Both the position numbers and the translations under genes were made by a program. A stretch of DNA of 64,000 nt from Acorus gramineus. Taxonomy: Eukaryota > Streptophyta > Magnoliopsida > Acorales > Acoraceae. Shown piece after piece: positions 2,485-59,668 of the stretch. Where the stretch lies: NCBI GenBank assembly GCA_030737835.1, contig CM060854.1, positions 18,136,859 through 18,200,858 on the forward strand, read 5' to 3'. Numbering within the stretch: position 1 is the stretch's first letter; each line of letters starts with the position of its first letter. The notes below the pieces were generated by a model. It searched no databases. It was not told the DNA's origin and saw nothing but the letters and a program-made list of their open reading frames with translations.

Positions 2485-3410
2485 CTCCCGTCAGCATCAT
2501 TTCTGATAGAGACGCGAGATTTACTTCGAGGTTCTGGCATAGCCTTCAGCACGCCCTTGGTACGAACCTCCACTTCAGTACAGCGTTTCATCCGCAGACG
2601 GACGGCCAGTAAGAGAGGACGATTCAGACCCTGGAGGACATGCTGCGAGCTTGCGTTCTCGACTTTGGGGGCAGTTGGGAGAGGCATCTTCCGTTGGTGG
2701 AGTTTGCCTACAACAACAGCTACCACTCGAGTATCCGGATGGCACCATATGAAGCGCTCTATGGCCGCAGCTGCAGGTCCCCCTTGTGTTGGGACGAGGT
2801 CGGAGAGTGCCAGTTGGAGGGACCAGAGATCATCCACCAGACCTCAGAGATGGTCAAGACGATTCGTGAGTGTATCCGAGTCGCTCAGAGCCGTCAGAAG
2901 AGCTACGCCGATCGTCGTCGCCGTGAGCTCGCCTTCGAGGTTGGTGACCATGTTTTCCTGAAGGTGTCCCCGATGAAGGGCATCTTCCGTTTCGGTGTGC
3001 GGGGCAAGCTGAGTCCGCGTTTCATTGGGCCGTTCCTCATCCTCGAGCAGGTTGGAGAGGTGGCCTATCGCATAGCCCTGCCCCCACAGTTGGCTCAAGC
3101 CCATGACGTCTTCCATGTCTCGCAGCTGAGGCGTTACGTCCACGATCCTGCTCACATCATTCAGTTCGAGCCGCTCGTCTTTGAGCCGGACTTGTCATTC
3201 GTGGAGCAACCGATCAAGATCTTGGACCGACATGAGAAGAGGCTCCGCACCAAGACCGTCCATCTGGTTAAGGTGCGTTGGCAGCACCGTTCTGGTGCCG
3301 AGGCCACTTGGGAGCGAGAGGACGCCATGCGTGGCGCATATCCGCATCTTTTCCCTTCCTAGATATTTTTGTATTTATTTTGTGGACAAAATTTCCTAAG
3401 GGGGGAAGAA
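2485..3410 (+). mobile_element. Ty3/gypsy pol fragment (integrase end and chromodomain-like tail)
   Basis: Plus-strand coding remnant of a chromovirus. Integrase core motifs are visible ([43 protein letters not shown]). A GPF..L linker, the HDVFHVSQLRRY motif and a chromodomain-like tail (VRWQHRSGAEATWERE) follow, ending near 3361. A purine-rich tract at 3399-3410 (AAGGGGGGAAGAA type) is the polypurine tract just before the LTR. This fixes the order pol, PPT, 3' LTR. Everything upstream of the middle of integrase is absent and replaced by the inverted LTR. It is a broken fossil with at least one interruption besides the large loss. Confidence 0.9.
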
Positions 3411-5965
3411 AGTTATATATGTGTCACTTTTAGCCTTCTGGTCACCATTGGAGCATTTCTGGTAGTTTTTAACTTTTTCTTTTTTCGATCGGAACCGCTA
3501 AAATTTTGGACTTTTAGCTATCTGCATGAGTTTGAGAATTCCGATTGAAAATCTAACTGCACATTATGTGTCCTGGTGCCATTTCGAACCACTCACAAAA
3601 ATTTCATCGAATTCCGGTAACGTTTCAGAATTTGGCAGTTCCGAATCGTATCCGGGTTTTGACCGAGTGGGAAAGTCAAAGGGGAGACTTGACCAAGTCA
3701 AGGAGACTTGGACCAAGTCAAATTTGACCATTGACTTGGTCAAATCCTTTTGTTTTTTTGTGTGGTTGGGTTGACTCAAGTCAATCCCCACCAAACCCTA
3801 TTGTTCCAAGTGTGTGAGTGAGTGTGTGTGTGTGTGTGTGTCACTAGTCTTGGGCGTCCACCCTTCTCTCCTCTTCTCTTCTCTTCTCCATCTCTCTCAC
3901 ACACTTTATCACTCACTCCCTCTTCTTTCTTTGCTCCATTAGAGGTAGTAGAAGAAGAAGAAAAGGAAAACCCTAGAAGGGAAAAAGAAAGGTAAGGGTG
4001 TGATCTACCTTTGCATGGTGTTTGTTTTGTTTTCCCCTTTCTTTACCTCCCTCTCATGGCTTCCCCTCCCCCCCTGTTTCAGCCATTTTTAGGCCTTGAG
4101 AGTGGCTGAGGTGGTGGTGGTCTTGGTGGTGGCGGTTGTGGTGGTTTGGTGCGCGAAGGGCACCCGAGCTTCCTCCCTTGTTCTTCCTCTCCTTGGGTAA
4201 GTCTTCCTCCTCCCCTAGCTTGGTTAGATGATTGATTAGGGTGTTTAAATGGTTATGCATGCTTTGCATAGGTGTTAGGGGGTGTGGGTGGGCTGAGGAG
4301 GGGGTGGAAGGGGCTCGGGCGCGCGCGCGGAGCCATCCGCGAGCGTGCGTGCGCGTCTGCGCGCGCAGTCGGGCGCTGGCGCACGCAGACGGGCGCACTG
4401 GCGGTGCTAGCGGGTACGCGCTGGGCTGGACGCGCGTGGGCAGGGCGCGACAGTGCACCAGGGGCGCATGCGTGCGTGCGCATTCGTGCGTGCGCGTGCG
4501 GGGGGCCATGCGTATGGCTGCCCGAGGGTTCGGGAGGGTGTCGGGGCACTCGGACTCGCGTGCGTACGTGCGCGCTCGCATGCGTGCGAGTCCGTATGCA
4601 TGCTTGTCCGAGTGTTGGGTATTTCTAGTAAATTTCTTAGGTATTTGTGTAGTTTACTCACCATATTGAATGCCCATGTCTTACAGATCTTGACGGACGG
4701 TCACGCAGTGACCCGGGTTTCGGTGAGCGGGACAATCCAACCCAGTAGGGAGGCGTTCGATGCACGTAGGCATGCATTGCCCTCCCCTGGGGCACCATAA
4801 TTGTGTATTAACTTGTGATAAATGTAAAACTATGCAATGCATGATTAATATGATGTAACCATGCCACATTAGACTTTGTATGCTAGGGATATGCACCCTT
4901 ATATCATGTATAGAGGCCTATGCATGCCTAGACACCATGTCCCTTGATTGGAAAGCCCCGAACTATGTATGTTCCCATCTAGTTTAATCTAATTAAATCA
5001 AAATGAGAGCATATTGTTATAAGCATGCCTTAGAGAATATTATAACCTTGTTGTTATAATATATGTTTCCCCGCATCTTAGTTATGCGCCTTGGAGGAAT
5101 TCTTGAGAATTCATGACATTATTAGTGTTACAAATCGTTGTCGACGGATCCAAGAGGATCGTATCCATGTGAGTAGGCTGTCTTCTCCTTTTGGTTGGAT
5201 CCGATGTAGGGACTCCCCGGCGTTGGAAAGCTGACCTGACAGAGGGCTCTCATCTGTAGGTACCTCCGATGCGTCGGACAGTGCTGATCGTGGGAGTATA
5301 CCAGGTAGAGGCTACGGAGTGTGGGAGAGGCTACCGAGTGGACCAGGGGTGGAGAGCGGTCTAGTATGCCCCAAGAGGCCCATGTCACCCCCGTAAAGGG
5401 TGAGGGTGAGGGGGGGGGGGTGGGTTGGCGATGAAACGACCCACTAGAATGTGTAGTTGCTCCCGTTTTAGGGACTATAAATTATTTAAGGTTAATATGA
5501 ATTGTGATGCATAGATTGTGCCATTCACTGAGCGTGTGGCTCACCCCTCGCATATTCTTTTCCTCTAGTTATATCTGAGTCGGATCTAAAGGAGGAGCTC
5601 CCCGAGGCACCACAGCAGTAGCGGAGCAGCGTCACGTTTTGGGTTCTGCGAGTGAGAGGCCATCAACATCCCCTTCTTGATTGTATGTATTGTTATCCGT
5701 GCTTGGGCACACACTTGTATTTGGATGTCATTGTGTATATTGGCTCTCACGGGACAGTTGATAAGTTATTCGGGTCTGTAATATGTCTTTAAATTACAGA
5801 CTCAATCGTTTAAGCTTCCGCTATTTGTATATATTATGTCAGCTACATTATTGTCTGTGTTGTCATTTTCGATGTTGTTTAGAGTATTTTATTGATCTCC
5901 TGTATAGATTGCTGATATTATATATATTTGCCACGTATCGGGGACGGCCACCCTGGGGCGTGACA
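3411..5965 (+). mobile_element. 3' LTR of Del/Tekay-like Ty3/gypsy element
   Basis: About 2.55 kb, from the base after the polypurine tract (family start TGTTATATATGTGTCAC; the first base differs here) to GGGGCGTGACA. The solo LTR at 45469-48032 matches it along its whole length. It contains a (TG)n tract near 3820, the GC-rich alternating segment, an 11-base G run at 5410-5420 and a conserved TATCGGGG(A)TGGCC-type end. Very long LTRs plus a chromodomain-type integrase tail suit the Del/Tekay lineage; the lineage call is inference. Confidence 0.9.
4310..4600. repeat. GC-rich alternating purine-pyrimidine segment of LTR
   Basis: Equivalent of 1740-2107 in the opposite orientation. It is rich in GCGCGCGC, GTGCGTGCGC and CGTGCG runs. 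Open frames within it are composition artefacts. Confidence 0.7.
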
Positions 5966-8445: not shown

Positions 8446-9421
8446 CTAAGGTGGATATTATTTCCCCCCTTCAGTTAAATTTGTAAATTTCTAGGGAAAA
8501 AGAACTCAAGCAATATGAATTCTTGTAGCCAGGCTTCGATTTTCTCAATGGCTGTATAGGAAATAACACAAAAATGACACATAATGATCGTGCTTGACTC
8601 AATGGATAACTTTTTTTACCTTGCTTGATTGTGCCTCTAGAGTGCTGAGCGAGCGACCTCTTTATAGGCTGCCTACGTACCCCTTGGGGATCAAGTCACA
8701 CGTAGTTCCTTTGGTGCTCTTGTAACCGCCTTGCCACTAAGTGTTTAGTGAGATTTTTTCTAGGGAAACCCCCCCCCCCCAGCATTTACTCTCCACGTCG
8801 GTCCTTGATTACCCACGTTCTGTTGGTAATGGGCCTTAAACGCTACCTTGGCAGTTACAGGCGTTAGTGGTCTTCTGACCGTTTCTTCATCTTGCTTGGG
8901 GTCTCTTGATGTGCTCGTCCATACGTTTCGCATCACGCCTTCGAGGAGTAAGGTCGACCGACCAGACCTCATGTCTAGTCATGCCTTAGACTACTCGCCT
9001 TCGAGGAGTAAGGTTGACCGACCAGACCTCATGTCTAGTCATGCCTTAGACTACTCGCCTTCGAGGAGTAAGGTTGACCGTCCAGACCTCATGTCTTGTC
9101 GTGCCTTAGACTACTCGCCTTCAAGGAGTAAGATCGACCGACCAGACCTCATATCTGGTCGTGCATTAGACTACTCGCCTTCAAGGAGTAAGGTCGACTG
9201 ACCAGACCTCATGTCTGGTCGTGCCTTAGACTACTCGCTTTCCAAGTGCCCGACCACTCAACTAGACATTGTATCTAGTTGTGCCAGTACATTTGGGAGA
9301 GTCATTATGACCAAGGATTAGAACTCGGATTTGCGGGTCCCACGGTAAGCCCACGTCCGTCCTGGTGTGACACATTACCCCTGATATGACACGTGTTGTG
9401 GTGAGGATTTTTACCTCCACA
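8446..9421 (-). mobile_element. 3' LTR of a minus-strand Tat-lineage Ty3/gypsy element
   Basis: On the minus strand it starts at 9421 with TGTGGAGGTAAAAATCC and aligns with the LTR at 44481-45228. Shared blocks include TTTATAGGCTGCCTAC, CAAGTCACACGTAGTTCC, GCCACTAAGTGTTTAGTG and GGCAGTTACAGGCGTT. A purine-rich stretch (minus strand AGAAGAGGGG, just right of 9421) fits a polypurine tract. That makes this the 3' LTR, with the internal region to the right. It is longer than the other copy, mainly because of the 60-bp tandem repeat. Fossil. Confidence 0.7.
8938..9240. repeat. 60-bp tandem repeat, five copies, within the LTR
   Basis: The unit is exactly 60 bp and includes TCGAGGAGTAAGGTCGACCG, ACCAGACCTCATGTCTAGTC and TGCCTTAGACTACTCGCC. 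Copies start near 8941, 9001, 9061, 9121 and 9181 and differ by a few bases each. Because 60 is divisible by three, an open frame (8848-9201) runs through the array. I treat it as an artefact. The related LTR at 44481-45228 has only about two much-diverged copies. Confidence 0.95.
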
Positions 9422-27465: not shown

Positions 27466-30400
27466 ATGCAAGATCAGCGGACCAATTCGATCCCCTCGAG
27501 CAGTGAGAGGTCTTCCAGCTCTGCTGTGCATCTCGAAATCAAAGAAGGTGAACTTCCCTGTCTTTTAATTTCTGATTCTTTTGGGGGTTCTAAAATGAGG
27601 TTGTTTGGCAATTTTTTCATCGGGGTCTGATAAAAATGAGATTTTTATTTGGTTTTCTTAGCTGGGTTTCTTTGATTTTGCTTTTGGTGGTGACAATTTT
27701 ATCTGTGTTTGATAAAAATGTAATTTTTATAGGCATTTAGTCCTTTTTTTTATTCTGTTTATATGATATTTGTTTCTCTTAAAGTTGCTTCATTTGCTGC
27801 AATCAACGAATAATTTTTCATTTTTATTATTGTTTCATAAACAATGTAAGATCATATTTTTAGCCAAAAGAAAAAGACATTTTTTTTCGATTTATTCAAA
27901 ACATTGACGCTAAAATTAATCAATCTCTGTCTTTTCTTTTAGGATTATTTAAAATTGATCCGAGAAGCATGGAGAGCGACGAGGAGATCCGAAGGGTTCC
28001 CGAGGTTGGTAGCGAACCGGCCGGTCCATCGACATCCAGTCGTGAACCCGGTTCGACAACCGGTTCGGACCGGGCCCAGGCCTCTGCCGAGCCGGGTCAA
28101 AGGAAGCGTGGGAAGAACCCGGCCGACAAAGAACATAAGCGTCTCAAAAGGTATTTGTAAAAACCCAACTTTGTTTATGAAAAAAAGTTAGCTCAATCGA
28201 ATATTCTTTGAATTTTATACTTGATTAATGAAATATATATTTTTATAATAAAAAAATAAAGTGCATACTCATTAGTACTCATTTTTTGGGATAAAATGCA
28301 TAGCCCCCCCCCCCCCCCCCCCCCAACACATGAAAATCCAGATAACCCCATGTCTTTCCCGAAATCCAAATATTTCAACATAACTAAAAGTAACCCTTAG
28401 TAAAATAACCACTGACAGGATTTGAATATTCCTAGTATTTTGTTTTTCTAACCAAGGCAAAATGCAATAATATAATTAAGTTCGTGTAAACTAGCAAAAA
28501 ACACAAATAACCCTGTGCCAATTACGTTTTACCCTTGCATATCACGCAAAGTCATAGGCGATGAGGGTGAACAAAGGTGTCATGTGAGGAGAACGAATGA
28601 AGGGGATGAAGGAGAATGTAATGTTTGGGGTTTCTCATGTTAATGGTTGATTGGGAGAATGTGTAAATGTCACTTTCCACATTCGGTTAAATTCAAGTTA
28701 TCCTTAGGTTAACTAACAGAATGTTGTATTTGGATTTTAGTTATGTTTTTGGGGGGTTATTTGGATTTTTGGGAAAAGACTAAGGGGTAATCTGAATTTT
28801 CATAAGATTGTCTGGATTTATATGCATTTATCTCTTCTTTTTTTTATTATAGAGTATATATTGTATTAGTGATATTATGACTAACAGGAATGCAAAATAT
28901 GAGCACCCTTTGCATATGCCTCCGGATTTAGATCACCTGTGGCGGGTCATACGGGGACACTAATGGGTCCAGATAGGAATAAGAGAATTTATTTTTTCGA
29001 TATAAAACCTGATAATTATGATTTGATTAATTAGAATAAATTTTGATAACTATTCTACGGTGAAATTACTTATAGAGCTATGCCAGAAGATAACGTTATC
29101 CCTAATAATTTTAAAAAAAATGGTCTCACATTAGCTAACACATCACTCACATGTCTCAATATCCCAAATCACAATCAATCCAATTCACCCACATTAGATT
29201 TTTGGAAGTACTCTTGAAATTTTAATATATCAAAAATAGCCATATTCTATTCAAATAAACCTCAATAATGGATTGTTCTTTATATGATTTGAATAAGAAA
29301 AAAAATTTACTAAACCAAACGGTGGAAAAAGTGAGATTTTGAGATGTAAAGGATTTCAAAGGTTGTACACCCCCCCCCCCCCCCCCCCCCCACCCAAACA
29401 AAAAATAAATAAATAATTATTCAAGATAACACAATTATATTATACCCATGGAAGGGCATTTTGTGAATAAATCAAATTCTGTGCATGTAGGTTGTTGAGG
29501 AACAGAGTGTCTGCACAACAAGCAAGGGAAAGGAAGAAAGCATACCTGAGTGAGCTGGAGACTAAAGTGAAGGACCTGGAGAGCAAGAATTCTGAGCTTG
29601 AAGAGAGGCTCTCCACATTGCATAATGAGAACCAGATGCTCAGACATGTATGTTCTTCTTCCTTTTTGTCATCTGAAACTTTATTTTTTGGTGTGTTGTA
29701 TCACATTTCACCGTCACTATCATCCTCATCATCTTTTGTTTTTGGTATGATGATCTTTATGAGCTATAAAGTCACTAAAGATAAACCACTACTAGTACTA
29801 GAGAAGTTTGAGCAACAACAATGACCAGAACAGTGAACCAAAACCCACTAGAAACAACTTATTAGAGATTTGTACACATCTTTTTTCCACCTACGACCAA
29901 GGTTGACCCCAAGGGGGCAGTATCCTTTACCATCAGGCGATCAGCCTTTGAGACATCCTCATCATCATTAGATTCCTTCACCCACTAGAATCAGCTTACT
30001 GTATTCATCTTTATTCAAGGTTGACCCAAAGGGGACACCGCCCCTTACCACCAGACCACCGGTCTTTGGGACACCCTCATCGTCATTAGATTCCTTCGCC
30101 CATCAGAATCTGCTTAGGGGATTGTACACATCTTTTTTCCCACCTGAGAAACAGACCAAGGTTGACCTCAAGGGGGCATCTTCATTATCTGATAATGATT
30201 ATCATTAGATTCCTTCTTTTCGTTTGCTTGCCTCCTATCCTCCCTTCTACTTTGCTGTGATTTTTTTGTGTGTGTGAGGGAGAAACCCCGACATTATTTT
30301 TTTGGGTTAAAGACATCTAAGTCCCTACAAACATGAGAAAACCCATATAAGTCCCTATTAAAATTGGGACAGACGTACGAGTCCCTGAAAACTCAGAAAA

Positions 30401-32062
30401 ACCCAATTATCATCCCTGAGTTAAATTTCCATCCAAACTTAACGGAATATTCCCAGAATATTCCATTACATATAATTGTGTTGACATTGAAGTCCTTATA
30501 AACAGTCATAAAGACAAATTAATCCCTGTAAAAGACAAAGTTGTCCCTAAAAGACTTTTACATTAAATTGTGTACACATTGCTGTCCCTATAAATAATCA
30601 TAAAGAAAATTAATCCCCATAAAAGACAAAATTGTCCCTGAAAGACTTTTACATTTAATTGAATAAACATTACAGTATTTATAAATAATCGTAAAGACAA
30701 ATTGGTCCCTGTAAAAGACAAAAATACCCTTAAAGGATTTTTACATTTAATTGTGTAGACATTGCAGTCTTTATAAACAATCATAAAGACAAATAATATA
30801 ATTTATTTATTTATTTTTTCATCTTCTATCCTATCAATCACACTCCACCTGAAGATCATAATTTGGATGTAAAACCAATATTTTAACCGGTAGAATGCAT
30901 TCTTCATGGGCATTTTGGTCTTTTATAGGGACTATTTTTGTCTTTACGATTATTTATAAGGACTGTAATGTTTATCCAATTAAATGTAAAAATCTTTCAG
31001 GGGTAATTTTGTATTTTGTATGGACTAATTTGTCTTTATGATTATTTATAGGGACTGTAATGCGTACACAATTTAATGTAAAAGTCTTTCAGGGGCAATT
31101 TTATCTTTTGCAGGGACTAATTTGTCTTTATGACTGTTTATAAGGACTTCAATATCTATACAATTATATGTGATAGAATATTCTGAGAATATTCTGTTAA
31201 GTTTGGATGGAAATTTAACTCAATGATGATAATTGGGTTTTTTTGAGTTTTCAGGGACTCGTACATCTGTCCCAATTTTAATAGGGACTTATATGGGTTT
31301 TCCAATGTTTATAGGGACTTAGATATCTTTAACCCTATTTTTTTCGTTCTTAATGTTGGGAAAACCCAATATACATAGAACTGATAGAATTACCTACAAA
31401 ATGAAATTACAAAATCATTTAATGAGTATGTGCTTTGATAAAAATGAATTAATATTTCACTCGTTGCATAAAAATAAAAAATCACATGCTTCATTCAACA
31501 GAAAAACATACTTTCATTGAAATGTCCATATGTTGTACTGCATATAAGAAACCCCTCATTTTAATTTTGGATATATCCCTCTCTTCTTGGAGGGTCATTT
31601 TGTATTTTTTGTGTAACATGCCAAAGTATGAATGCTGATTTTTTCCATTCCCTAAACAAGGATAAGAGGATATTTATAGATAATTTATGCTCTGTATTTT
31701 GAAGAACTATATAGATCAAACATACTTTCATAGAAATGTACCATATTTTGTACTGCATATAAGAAACCCCTCATTTTAATTTTGAATATATCCCTTTCTT
31801 ATTGGAGGGTCATTTTGTATTTTTGTGTAACATGCCAAAGTATGAATGCTGATTTTTTCCATTCCCTAAACAAGGATAAGAGGATATTTATGGATAATTT
31901 ATGCTTTGTATTTTGAAGAACTACATAGATCACACATTTCATTCGTTGAGGGGCACTTTTATTAATATTGAGTGACATTATTTTTTGTGTTTTGATTTGC
32001 AGATACTGAAGAATACCACTGTGAGTAGGAGAGGGTCTAGCAGCAGTGTCAGTGGAGAGTGA
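27466..32062 (+). CDS. HY5: HY5-type bZIP transcription factor (ELONGATED HYPOCOTYL 5)
   Basis: Nuclear bZIP activator of light-responsive genes; in the dark the family is degraded through the COP1 ubiquitin ligase. Exons: 27466-27547, 27943-28150, 29491-29647 and 32003-32062, all with GT..AG introns, giving 168 aa. Visible parts: a Ser-rich N-terminus ([10 protein letters not shown]), the COP1-binding [11 protein letters not shown] motif at residues 38-48, a basic region with N101-x7-R109 ([19 protein letters not shown]), and leucine heptads L119, L126, L133, L140 and L147. The tail begins ILKNTT. The length equals Arabidopsis HY5. Exon 2 starts after a strong pyrimidine tract and adds LFKIDPRS before MESDEE; Arabidopsis HY5 lacks these eight residues. 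Exon 2 is GC-rich in an AT-rich locus. Intron 3 is full of repeats. HYH is a less likely identity because of the full-length N-terminus. Confidence 0.95.
28304..28324. repeat. 21-base poly(C) run in HY5 intron 2
   Basis: An uninterrupted C run. A second one of 22 bases is at 29370-29391 in the same intron. Confidence 0.95.
29370..29391. repeat. 22-base poly(C) run in HY5 intron 2
   Basis: An uninterrupted C run about 100 bases before the acceptor of exon 3. Similar runs are at 15761-15777, 35226-35248 and 55230-55248. Confidence 0.95.
29898..30215 (-). repeat. Three ~119-bp direct repeats in HY5 intron 3, SINE-like
   Basis: Copies start near 29898, 30016 and 30160 with CAAGGTTGACCYCAAGGGG and continue to CATTAGATTCCTTC; the third is shortened. 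On the minus strand the unit reads GGTCTGGTGGTAAGGGG followed by GGGTCAACCTTG. This recalls tRNA-type A and B boxes, so a SINE head is possible. Confidence 0.55.
30304..31335. mobile_element. Palindromic Mutator-like MITE in HY5 intron 3
   Basis: Perfect 9-bp target duplication TATTTTTTT (30295-30303 and 31336-31344). Ends start GGGTTAAAGACATCTAAGTC on the left and GGGTTAAAGATATCTAAGTC on the right, and the near-identical inverted repeat continues for at least 150 bp. Beyond it, each arm holds about three tandem units of ~92 bp (CATAAAGACAAATTAATCCC, then GACTTTTACATT), inverted between the arms. Nearly the whole 1,032 bp is thus one palindrome around a ~100-bp centre near 30800-30900. Non-coding and mobilised in trans, if at all. 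Confidence 0.9.
31507..31933. repeat. 214-bp tandem duplication in HY5 intron 3
   Basis: Copy 1 is 31507-31720 and copy 2 is 31721-31933. Both begin CATACTTTCAT and include GTACTGCATATAAGAAACCC, GTAACATGCCAAAGTATGAA and CATTCCCTAAACAAGGATAA. Only about a dozen differences are visible, so the duplication is fairly recent. It ends about 70 bp before the acceptor of exon 4. Confidence 0.95.
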
Positions 32063-33153: not shown

Positions 33154-34884
33154 GGCTAAAAATATTTAAGTCCATATAAACATAAATAAACCCATATAAG
33201 TCATCGTAAACTTTTGGTGGGACATACACGTCTTTTAAACTATTATGATTAGTCAATTTAACTTTTCAGTTAAATTTTCATCCGGTCCAACAACCGTTAT
33301 GTCCCCAAAAACATTGAAAAGACATAAATCTTTTTAAATAACCGATTTATCGTTGAGCCCATTTTCACTTTTCTTCTTTTTAACCTTCCTCTTGCAGTCC
33401 TCTCATTTTCTTCAACTTCTTCTCATCTCTTTTAACAATGTCATGACCCAGTGTTCTGTTATGATATGCGCTCTGTGTGACCGCATATGCAACCGCACAG
33501 ACAGTTCGGTTGATCAATTGAACTGTCTCAGACAAAAAGCGCCCATATGTAGGATCAGGCCGCATATATGCGATTCGATTCGCATGAGTTGGAGCACAAG
33601 TTTTGAAAAAAAAAAAGTCGGGTGGACCAAACCACCCAACCCGTTTAATAACATAAAAAAAAAAAAGTGTTGGCCCTAATCAGGTCGTCTTCTTCACACG
33701 AACACAGACGCATACATCTTCTTCTTCATCAATCAGATCTTCTACTTCACACGGACTCACGCCTTCGGCCGTCATCAATCTGGTCTTCTTCTTGGCAAGC
33801 CTTCTTCATCGATCAAGTCTTCTTCAACTAATATTTTCTTCATCGATCGATCTTCTTCAGTTCTTCCTCGGCTTGTCTTCCTCGGCATCTTGACTTCTTC
33901 TTCATAGTTCCTTTCCTTTTCACTTTTTTTTATTAGTGTACCAAACATGTGTATATTATATTAAATGTAAAGTAAAATGAACAGCATGTGGACAGAGTGG
34001 TTGTGTGTAAAGAAAGAAAACAGTCCACCTGGCACAACAGACAAAGACACATGGTGTGTGTTTTTTTTTTTGGAAATCAAAGACACATGGGTTATTAGGT
34101 TTTGATTAATTCACAACTTCACATGGTTTTTAAACAATTATAATTAAGCTTATGTTTATCCATAAGTATCTCTGCATATAAAAAACTAGTAAACATTTTT
34201 ACTGATTAGGTCTCCCAGTCATAATGTGTGACTAAAATCATAGGTATCGATTTTGATGTCTTCAAAATTTATCATGTTATTTCTTATTTAAAAATAATCA
34301 CCTTACAATCATTTTTTTACTAATAAAAAATTACAGGATCGCATATACTCTCACATACTGCATATGCTCTGTGCGGTACCCCAATCACATACAAACCATA
34401 TACTGCATATGGAAACATTGTCATGAACCCATAGCTCCATGGAAGTGATGAAACATCCCAATGGTGCTCGTAGAAGCTTCAATAATATTCTGAATTCTAT
34501 ATTTTCTGAATTTCAAATCCCCCCAAAGCAAAAATATATCGTTCATTATTGATTCCCAAATCAAGCATGCATCAGATTACTATGCCAAGAAACAAAGTCA
34601 TTCGAACGACTTTACCACAAAAAAAAAAAATTTCATTTCTAACCCTAGGTGTCTAAAATCAAAAGCTTCAACAAAAATCAAAATAGAGGTTTTTAAATTT
34701 TTAGAGGGTATAATAGTCAAAGTATACCCATAGTTAAATCTAACAGTAGGTGAGTTAATAGCAGTTAATTGTAGGGATTTATATGACATTTTTTATGTTT
34801 GCTAGAACATGTATGTCCTACCCCAAGTTTACAAGAATTTATATGGGTTTACAAGTGTTTATAAAAACTTAATGCCTTTAACCC
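33154..34884. mobile_element. Long-TIR Mutator-like element of the HY5-intron family, with cargo
   Basis: Left end GGCTAAAAATATTTAAGTCC and right end (reverse complement) GGGTTAAAGGCATTAAG belong to the same family as 30304-31335. The repeat TTTTTTAATAA flanks it on both sides (33143-33153 and 34885-34895, 11 bp). Between the eroded arms lies about 1.3 kb of foreign-looking sequence: a CTTCTTC-rich region (33685-33910), and two blocks rich in GCATATGC near 33465 and 34340. No coding domain is recognised. Confidence 0.75.
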
Positions 34885-45468: not shown

Positions 45469-48032
45469 TGTTATATATGTGTCACTTTTAGCCTTCTGGT
45501 CACTTTTGAAACATTCTGGCAGTTTTTCAATTTTTTTTTCTCTTTTTTCGATCGGAACCGCTAAAATTTTAGACTTTTAGCTATCATCATGAGCTTGAGA
45601 ACTCCGATTGAAAATCTAACTGCACATTATGTGTCCTGGTGCCATTTCAAACCACTCACAAAAATTTCATCGAATTCCGGTAACGTTTCAGAATTTGGCA
45701 GTTCCGAATCGTATCCGGGTTTTGACCGAGTGGGAATGTCTAAGGGAACTTGACCAAGTCAAAGAGAACTTTGACTAAGTCAAGTTTGACCATTGACTTG
45801 GTCAAATGGTTTTGTTTGTTTGTGTGGTTGGGTTGACTCAAAGTCAAACCTCACCAAATTATTTTTCACTAAGTGTGTGAGTGTGTGTGTGTGTGTGTGC
45901 AACCATTTGGACGTCCACCTTCCCTTCCCTTCTCTTCTCTCCTCTTCTCCTCTCACACACAAATCCATTTCATCTCCTCTTCCTTATTTTCCCCCATTAG
46001 AGGTAGTAGAAGTAAAGAAAAAGGAAACCCTAGAAGGGAAAAAGATAGGTAAGGGTTGGATCTACCTCTCCATGGTCTTTGTTTGGTTTTCCCCTTTGTT
46101 GACCTCCCTCTCATGGCTTCTCCTCCCCCCCCTGTTTCAGCCATTGTTAGGGCTGAGGGTGGTGGTGGTGGTGGTGGTCTTGGTGGTGGCGATTTGGTGC
46201 GCGAAGGGCACCCGAGCTTCCTCCCTTGTTCCTCCTCTCTTCGGGTAAGTCTTCCTCCTCCCCTAGCTAGGTTAGATGTTTGATTAGAGGGTTTAAATGG
46301 TTATGCATGCTTGCATGGGTGTTAGGGGGTGTGGGAGGGCTGAGGAGGGGGTGGAAGGGGCTCGGGCGCGCGTGCGGAGTCATCCGCGCGCGTGCGCGAG
46401 CGTCTGCGCGCGCAGGCAGGCGCTGGCGCGCGCAAACGGGCGCGCTGGCAAGCGCGCGCACGTACGCACAAATGCGCGGGCGTGCGCCGGGGTGCTGCAC
46501 GGGCGCGCAGTGCGCGCTGGCTGGGAGTGCGGGCAGGGGCGCGGCAGTGCGCCAGGGGCGCAGGGGCGCGTGCGGGCGTGCGCATTCGTGCGTGCGCGTG
46601 CGGGGGGCCATGCGTATGGCTGCCCGAGGGTTCGGGAGGGTGTCGGGGCACTCGGACTCGTGTGCGTACGCGCGTGCTCGCATGCGTGCGGGTCCGTATG
46701 CATGCTTGTCCGAGTGTTGAGTATTTCTAGTAAATTTCTTATGTATTTGTGTAGTTTACTCACCATATTGAATGCCCATGTCTTGCAGATCTTGACGGAC
46801 GGTCACGCAACGACCCGGGTTTCAGTGAGTGGGACAATCCAACCCAGTAGGGAGGCGTTCGATGCACGTAGGCGTGCATTGCCCTCCCCTGGGGCACCAT
46901 AATTGCGTATTAACTTGTAATAAATTTAATGCATGCATGATTTATATGATGTATCCATGCTACCTTAGACTTTGTATGCTAGGGAAATGCACCCTTATAT
47001 TATGTATAAAGGCCTATGCATGCCCAGACACCAAGCCCCGAACTATGTATGTTCCCATCTAGTTTAATCTAATTAAATCAAAATGTGAGTATATAGTTAC
47101 AAGCATGCCTTAGAGAATATTATAACCTTGTTGTTATAATATATGTCTCCCCGCATCTTAGTTATGCGCCCTGGAGGAATTCTTGAGAATTCATGACATT
47201 ATTAGCGTTACAATCGGTGTCGACGGATCCAAGAGGATCGTATCCATGTGAGTAGGCTGTCTTCTCCTTTTGGTTGGATCCGATGTAGGAACTCCCCGGC
47301 GTTGGCTGACCTGACAGAGGGCTCCCGTCCGTAGGTACCTCCGATGTGTCGGACAGTACTGATAGTGGGAGTATACCAGGTGGAGGCTACGGAGTGTGGG
47401 AGAGGCTACCGGGTGGACCAGGGTGGAGAGCGGTCTAGTATGCCCCAAGAGGCCCATGTCACCCCCCAGAAAGGGTGAGGGTGAGGGGGGGAGGTGGGTT
47501 GGCGATGAAACGACCCACTAGAATGTGTAGTTGTTCCCGTGTTAGGGACTATAAATCATTTAAGGTTAATATGAATTGTGATGCATGGGTTGTGCTATTC
47601 ACTGAGCGTGTGGCTCACCCCTCGCATATTCTTTTCCCCCAGTTATATCTGAGTCGGATCTGAAGGAGGAGCTCCCCGAGGCACATCAGTAGTAGCGGAG
47701 CAGCATCACGTTCTGCGAGTGAGAGGCCATCAGCATCCCCTTCTTGATTGTATGTATTGTATTCCGTGCTTGGGCACATACTTGTATTTGGATGTCATTG
47801 TGTATATTGGCTCTCACAGGACAGTTGATTATGTATCGGGTCTGTAATATGTCTTTGAATTACAGACTCAGTCGTTTAAGCTTCCGCTATTTGTATATAT
47901 ATTATGTCAGCTACCTTATTGTCTGTGTTGTCATTTCGATGTTGTTTAGAGTATTTTATTGATCTCCTGTATAGACTGCTGATATTATATATATTTGCCA
48001 CGTATCGGGGATGGCCGCCCTGGGGGGTGACA
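45469..48032 (+). mobile_element. Solo LTR of the Del/Tekay-like family in the LINE
   Basis: 2,564 bp, starts TGTTATATATGTGTCAC, ends GGGGGGTGACA, and matches 3411-5965 along its length. The LINE coding sequence resumes on each side. Flanks are TGGCC (45464-45468) and TGGCA (48033-48037), a 5-bp duplication with one difference. No internal region remains. By eye it is closer to 3411-5965 than to the inverted copy at 305-2484. It looks whole as a solo LTR. Confidence 0.9.
46370..46700. repeat. GC-rich alternating purine-pyrimidine segment of LTR
   Basis: Third copy of the tract seen at 1740-2107 and 4310-4600, here with long GCGCGCGC and GTGCGCGAGCG runs. The copies differ in length and in repeat number. 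Confidence 0.7.
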
Positions 48033-59167: not shown

Positions 59168-59668
59168 CGGTTAAAGACATTTACGTCCCTACAAATATAA
59201 GTAATCTCATATAAGTCAATATCAAAATTATGATACACGTACAAGTTCTTAAAAATCACTAAAACTAAATTATCATCCCTTGTTAAAAAAACTATTCAAA
59301 TTTAATGGAATATTGTAAGAATATTCAATCACCATGTAATTGTGTAGACATTACAATATTTATAAACAATTATAAAGATAAATTAATCCAAGCAAAAGAC
59401 TAAATTACTTTTTTAGAAATTTTATATTTCGTCATCTTTTACCTCGATATTGTTACGAGGGGTTGGAAAAATTAGAGATAATTTAGTGATTTTGTGATAT
59501 ATATTAGAATTAACTAGGAAAATAGGTTAAATCATAGTTAAACTCTGTTAACGACAGAGATGTATAAAGGTTTTTTTAAGTTTTTAAGGACTTATATGTT
59601 TACCTAAACTTTAACAGGAATTTATATAGGATATTCTATATTTATGGGAACGTAGATGTTTTTAATCC
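59168..59668. mobile_element. Small member of the HY5-intron Mutator-like family
   Basis: Ends CGGTTAAAGACATTTACGTC on the left and GGATTAAAAACATCTACGTT on the right (reverse complement). Target duplication AACTTATAA (59159-59167) and AACCTATAA (59669-59677), one mismatch. It has the same inner blocks as 30304-31335 (AAACTAAATTATCATCCC, TTTAATGGAATATT, TTATAAAGATAAATTAATCC). The arms carry about one unit instead of three. 501 bp. Confidence 0.8.

Follow-up and report, generated by a model that had tools for sequence, protein, structure and literature searches.

A foldback Mutator-like element in the last intron of the Acorus gramineus HY5 gene and the C-to-T decay of its family

The last intron of the HY5 gene of Acorus gramineus carries a 1032-bp near-palindrome, located at 30304..31335 of a 64,000-nucleotide stretch of DNA (GenBank assembly GCA_030737835.1, contig CM060854.1, positions 18,136,859 to 18,200,858 of the forward strand; this whole stretch is hereafter termed the window). 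Judged from its sequence, it is an ordinary non-autonomous foldback miniature inverted-repeat transposable element (MITE) of the Mutator-like superfamily and thus of a known kind. What appears to be new here is the way in which its family decays, mainly by C-to-T changes, in all sequence contexts and faster in the arms of the palindrome than in its loop, a pattern that fits past small-RNA-guided methylation; under footprint terms, we found no C-to-T footprint of this kind in the literature. We consider it probable that a foldback MITE of the Mutator-like element (MULE) type inserted into HY5 intron 3, that its family has been methylated by RNA-directed DNA methylation (RdDM) and that it has little or no effect on HY5 under normal conditions.

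Structure of the HY5 intronic element

The element, which belongs to a 1031-bp subfamily, is bordered by a perfect 9-bp target-site duplication (TSD), TATTTTTTT, found on the plus strand at 30295..30303 on the left and at 31336..31344 on the right, and its termini read GGGTTAAAG...CTTTAACCC. The left arm (30304..30738, plus strand, 435 bp) is made of about 162 bp of non-tandem sequence on the outside and of 92-bp units on the inside, and the right arm (30899..31335, minus strand, 437 bp) is an inverted copy of it; these limits are those of the stretches that the genome search matched to each other and that are paired in the predicted fold. The 92-bp units are arranged in tandem, 3.6 copies in the left half (30466..30794, plus strand) and 2.9 copies in the right half (30903..31171, minus strand), the latter inverted with respect to the former. 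Between the arms lies a 160-bp loop (30739..30898) that pairs with neither of them, its first third being a fourth, partial and unpaired left unit (30743-30794). Complementarity reaches 92% in the outer 306 bp of the arms (30304-30609 and 31030-31335) and 83% in the next 187 bp (30607-30793 and 30937-31123). A sequence-only reading of the window had placed a near-palindrome with a perfect 9-bp duplication and inverted tandem units at 30304-31335, all of which we recovered; it had also given the arms a length of 450-490 bp, and they are inverted as it proposed but slightly shorter.

The 9-bp TSD, the long terminal inverted repeats (435/437 bp), the short non-coding body and the many similar copies are those of a MULE MITE, and no open reading frame of at least 130 amino acids overlaps 30304-31335. 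The assignment to Mutator-like MITEs, already made from the sequence alone, is supported by the 9-bp TSDs found across the family. The arms are built of tandem subrepeats and pair across most of the element, as in foldback elements. The predicted RNA hairpin has a minimum free energy of -606.2 kcal/mol, compared to -201.5 +/- 8.5 kcal/mol for dinucleotide shuffles of the element (n=30) and to a lowest value of -351.9 kcal/mol for 21 control stretches of equal length (1032 bp) sampled at 3-kb intervals along the window, one of which (at 30001) overlaps the element. When the whole of intron 3 was folded, 900 of the 1032 bases of the element were predicted to be paired, every partner lying within the element, so that the long double-stranded hairpin formerly proposed for the pre-mRNA is indeed possible. 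The predicted fold of the HY5 copy contains 406 long-range pairs and seven duplex runs of at least 21 pairs without interruption.

A large family of foldback elements

The 398.6-Mb genome was searched for the 23-bp terminus of the element, which gave 752 exact matches and 1860 matches with at most two mismatches, the reversed control giving none. With two termini each, this would correspond to a family in the region of nine hundred elements, and the singular framing of the element in the sequence-only reading is misleading with respect both to this number and to the middling C-to-T count of the HY5 copy described below. The 40 copies analyzed here are those that received a score among 1748 first-look candidates, a non-random sample of those closest to the HY5 copy, and diverge from their consensus by 1.55-4.95%. 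At strict boundaries, a TSD matching at 9/9 positions borders 20 of these copies and one matching at 8/9 positions six more (26/40 with at least 8/9), compared to 43 of 1560 mispaired pairs of flanks used as a control. The TSDs of these 26 copies are nearly all A/T.

The family comprises several lengths. In a list of the first 100 exact termini, we counted by eye 22 convergent pairs less than 1.4 kb apart, from 533 to 1317 bp, of which six are exactly 957 bp long, and none of 1.4-20 kb. A 957-bp copy (L072) is predicted to pair almost end to end at -717.8 kcal/mol, hence the HY5 subfamily is not the best palindrome of the family, and a 533-bp copy (L073) folds too (-325.3 kcal/mol). The 9-bp duplication is absent from both at strict boundaries; L072 shares eight bases when one side is shifted by one.

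The flanks of 39 copies, taken at 1.5 kb per side, contain 178 open frames of at least 75 codons from stop to stop. A Pfam search was conducted on 68 of the 110 longest frames, picked by hand with several overlapping ones omitted. It detected terpene synthase and lectin domains (two members each), one reverse-transcriptase domain and one each of P450, aldo-keto reductase, LRR, RNase T2 and DUF7733, in a tally that does not separate domains sharing one frame. These gene domains indicate that several copies are close to genes. The window itself holds an older, diverged relative of the family at 59169-59665, 79% identical in the outer 240 bp and with an inverted stretch at 59548-59665 (74%), as well as a 49-bp trace at 33154-33202.

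C-to-T decay of the family

C-to-T changes on either strand (C>T or G>A, hereafter C>T) account for 786 of the 1178 changes from consensus in the 40 copies. As many as 78% of the C/G sites were changed by C>T at least once, and 9% of the A/T sites by the reverse change. Per site and copy, C>T rates were.061 in CG,.048 in CHG and.063 in CHH contexts, to be compared to.040,.026 and.012 in a control of 15 MULE transposase copies from the same genome.

The changes are unevenly distributed along the element. We counted 733 C>T in 11262 C/G cells of the arms (0.065 per site) and 45 in 1640 cells of the loop (0.027), and the arm rate exceeded that of the loop in 36 of the 40 copies. With stratification by trinucleotide, 97.6 changes were expected in the loop for the 45 observed, a deficit matched in 0 of 5000 permutations. 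It persisted without the sites changed at least five times (34 vs 56.0 expected; 5/5000), with steps counted on a tree (50 vs 92.1; 0/5000) and when the inner third of the arms served as the reference for the loop (44 vs 82.1; 6/5000), and no significant deficit was seen for T>C (24 vs 29.2) or transversions (28 vs 30.9). The small-RNA production suggested by the sequence-only reading receives indirect support from this methylation-like decay, denser in arms than in loop. Within the arms, an effect of distance from the ends was present as well (p 0.0006). The middle third has fewer C>T changes than the outer third (171 vs 212.2 expected; 24/5000). In the outer third, and likewise in the middle third, the left and right sides of mirrored G-C pairs decay at similar rates.

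Two simple accounts of this distribution were rejected, a clean step between arms and loop, whose fit does not exceed that of a gradient starting at the ends, and deamination of single-stranded DNA in a cruciform, which by reasoning would strike the loop more, the opposite of what was observed.

Several results weigh against our reading of the decay and of the element. The transposase control is coding and small, and the number of CG sites is low (20 and 30). When only singletons were counted, the contrast weakened, with rates of.0075 (CG),.0080 (CHG) and.0067 (CHH) in the 40 copies and of.0111,.0062 and.0035 in the control; singleton rates vary with copy number, and three subsets of 15 copies drawn at random from the family gave.023-.033,.024-.026 and.017-.020, respectively. 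Scoring sites as hit or not hit leaves a weak deficit in the loop (28 vs 31.5 expected; 595/5000). Distance from the ends, taken as a gradient, gives a better fit (p 1.9e-7) than a step between arms and loop (p 4.5e-5). A loop term added after distance raises the log-likelihood gain from 13.55 to 14.89 only; since it adds so little, the link between hairpin and C>T is not proven. The mirrored G-C pairs of the inner third decay at 0.067 on the left and 0.046 on the right, at odds with a simple hairpin model. As for the element, 14 of the 40 copies have a TSD below 8/9 at strict boundaries, although in two of them (L004 and L022) it becomes perfect once one boundary is moved by one base. Finally, a search for a parent, in which 150 of 1162 PF10551 candidates were scored and 30 of those 150 fetched with 1.5 kb on each side, found no match to the element in the 30 transposase loci. 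In addition, none of 13 listed transposase matches (contig C1, and contig C2 up to 10.7 Mb) lies less than 90 kb from an exact terminus, as judged by eye.

Hairpin, copy number or artefact

The explanation that best survives beside our own, and to which we give somewhat less than an even chance, is one of dosage in trans, in which small interfering RNAs (siRNAs) of the family methylate according to copy number and the hairpin of the HY5 copy plays no part in the excess of C>T in the arms. Genome-wide, at no more than two mismatches, a loop word was found 208 times, the terminus 1860 times and a mid-arm word 2283 times; termini and mid-arm words occurring twice per complete element, the loop word is about 4.5-fold rarer per element and 9-fold rarer per occurrence, in keeping with dosage. 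The mid-arm word is nevertheless no rarer than the terminus, although the middle third of the arms shows less decay than the outer third, which indicates that dosage does not account for everything. A more specific proposal, which we regard as doubtful, is that the decay is a fossil of the hairpin itself: the arms would have given double-stranded RNA that directed methylation to their own cytosines, whatever the context, with the loop receiving much less of it, the C-to-T decay would map the hairpin and HY5 intron 3 would bear such a patch.

Sequence context, subfamily structure or gene conversion among units is unlikely to have produced the arm excess as an artefact. The arms do contain repeated units, CAA and CCA sites mutate most, the hit/not-hit deficit is weak and the loop has just 41 C/G sites, among which the 15 G sites changed at.013 and the 26 C sites at.036. 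The loop deficit nonetheless survives trinucleotide stratification, the removal of hotspots and the counting of steps on the tree, T>C and transversions are alike in arms and loop, and gene conversion would be expected to raise T>C too.

The HY5 copy resembles the others

We then asked what sets the HY5 copy apart. It diverges from the consensus by 2.91%, and 21 of its 30 changes are C>T, 13 of them in CHH; its nearest relative, L002, does not have 13 of the 21 in common. All 21 lie in the arms. With 41 of the 323 C/G sites located in the loop, their absence from it is no more than suggestive. When the 40 copies are ordered by C>T count, the HY5 copy comes 23rd, and in the features tested it looks like any other copy; nothing that we found in the sequence indicates that the element alters HY5.

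Co-evolution of the arms was tested on 419 consensus pairs in the 40 copies with 300 shuffles. Changes on both sides of a pair occurred 41 times, compared to 42.7 +/- 5.8 in the shuffles, and Watson-Crick pairing of arms was no better within copies (93.30%) than between copies (93.26%); neither compensatory change nor gene conversion between arms was seen. There is thus no sign of selection for pairing or of gene conversion since the copies spread. As the arms decay independently, nothing points to the hairpin being maintained, and the selection preserving it that would mark a functional regulator of HY5 was not seen in this family-wide test.

These results bear on an active role in cis, in which the hairpin of the HY5 pre-mRNA would be diced into siRNAs that tune HY5 through methylation of the intron or chromatin looping. 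We judge it improbable. The very stable fold with its seven long uninterrupted runs and the methylation-like decay of the arms, in which the HY5 copy has all of its 21 C>T changes, speak for it, as do the repression of EUI and FLC by intronic MITEs or transposons (PMC7145194) and the MITE-derived siRNAs and loops at HaWRKY6 (PMC12595863). The HY5 copy however decays as the others do, the family lacks compensatory changes preserving the hairpin, and a loop with none of 21 changes is not improbable alone. Least probable by far is a conserved functional RNA or microRNA precursor kept in HY5 by selection: MITEs are described as able to evolve into such precursors (PMC12595863), but intron 3 has no Rfam match at gathering scores, the element has no match in the HY5 paralogue and the arms decay independently in the family.

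The host gene

The coding exons of HY5, all on the plus strand, are at 27466..27547 (exon 1), 27943..28150 (exon 2), 29491..29647 (exon 3, bZIP) and 32003..32062 (exon 4, including the stop codon). Joined, they form an open frame of 168 amino acids with a bZIP domain, the best solved relative being the HY5 zipper 2oqq (E 6.2e-16), which establishes the host gene and intron named in the sequence-only reading. The element lies in intron 3, the last intron (29648..32002, plus strand, 2355 bp, GT...AG), at distances of 656 bp (donor) and 667 bp (acceptor) from the splice sites. With splice sites canonical, the frame intact and such distances to the sites, the effect on splicing formerly suggested finds no support.

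A second HY5 gene (L071, contig C32, G000:C32:9361300-9366300) aligns with HY5 over the exons and parts of the introns. Its intron 3 is about 1.45 kb long by eye, and comparison of this locus with the element gave no match. The acceptor of HY5 exon 2 (27943-27968) was picked by eye to preserve the frame and puts eight residues, LFKIDPRS, ahead of MESDEEIRR; judged by eye, they are missing from the paralogue. Other bZIP matches on contigs C2 and C1 (64-65% identity) are perhaps HYH. HY5 intron 3 further contains a degenerate 118-bp tandem repeat (80%) directly upstream of the element at 29898-30116, with a short extra trace at 30154-30178, and, downstream of the element, two tandem copies of a 214-bp unit that are 95% identical (31504-31937). 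Poly-C runs of 21 bp (28304-28324) and 26 bp (29370-29395, 92% pure) occur in intron 2.

Elsewhere in the window, two related repeat copies at 3412-5965 and 45470-48032 share 88-92% identity and include GC-rich low-complexity stretches, a 60-bp unit is repeated in five tandem copies at 8936-9242 (93%), and an open reading frame at 2640-3362 resembles a retrotransposon integrase by eye.

Relation to known systems

The nearest described relatives of the HY5 element family are MuTAnT and FARE1. MuTAnT of Medicago truncatula is reported as a Mutator-like group comprising 218 related elements, from about 200 bp to more than 1.6 kb in length, whose insertions in transcribed regions are located in untranslated regions or introns (PMC4486113). 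It has long modular foldback terminal inverted repeats and a 9-nt TSD, as does the HY5 element, but targets (TA)n microsatellites, whereas the 26 TSDs of the HY5 family are A/T-rich and generally not TA arrays, and it includes one element with a complete mudrA-like open reading frame, whereas no parent was found for the HY5 family. Arabidopsis FARE1, likened here by description alone, has long palindromic repeats at both ends and is now classed among MULEs according to the same source (PMC4486113). Judging by titles and abstract openings of the papers listed under terms for transposon insertion in HY5 introns, we found no earlier report of an element in a HY5 intron.

Inverted repeats near genes are common in Arabidopsis, where 634 of 885 are given as having a gene within 3 kb, about 68% as probably derived from transposons, notably MuDR-family MITEs, and 24-nt siRNAs as arising from around 486 of the 634 (PMC12595863). 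These repeats (Arce 2023, via PMC12595863) resemble the HY5 case in their proximity to genes, in the many MuDR-family MITEs among them and in RdDM. They differ in that siRNAs and chromatin topology were measured there, the HY5 element being known from its mutational footprint; HaWRKY6 of sunflower, with its MITE-derived siRNAs and loops, is described in the same paper (PMC12595863). Rice EUI, repressed by an intronic MITE, and FLC, repressed by intronic transposons, offer the likeness of a transposon within an intron of a developmental regulator, but lowered expression and siRNAs are reported for them (PMC7145194), whereas the HY5 element is read from sequence. Rice introns are also stated to be enriched for short MITEs low in CHG methylation (PMC7145194), and transcribed genes to carry intragenic transposons with both RdDM-dependent and independent methylation (PMC4417168).

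Our preferred reading is that of a MULE MITE methylated with its family. A MULE transposase acting in trans would have moved the element, which would have entered HY5 intron 3 at an A/T stretch. It would be removed by splicing along with the intron, and we propose that it persisted for this reason. The decay pattern suggests that the family, including the HY5 copy, was methylated at cytosines in all contexts, the arms most, and 24-nt siRNAs from the family hairpin or from the many copies would guide RdDM to it. The effect on HY5 under normal conditions is most likely little or none; any effect would come from a silenced patch within the intron. In view of the cases above, the mechanism put forward in the sequence-only reading is plausible and of a known kind, and for HY5 it would be a candidate.

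The family offers a natural series of long hairpins, about nine hundred by termini, in several size classes and some near genes. If C-to-T decay truly follows the paired arms, a genome sequence alone could reveal the inverted repeats targeted by small RNAs. For HY5 the point is a modest one: the element would give its last intron a candidate site for an epiallele, with precedents in other regulators.

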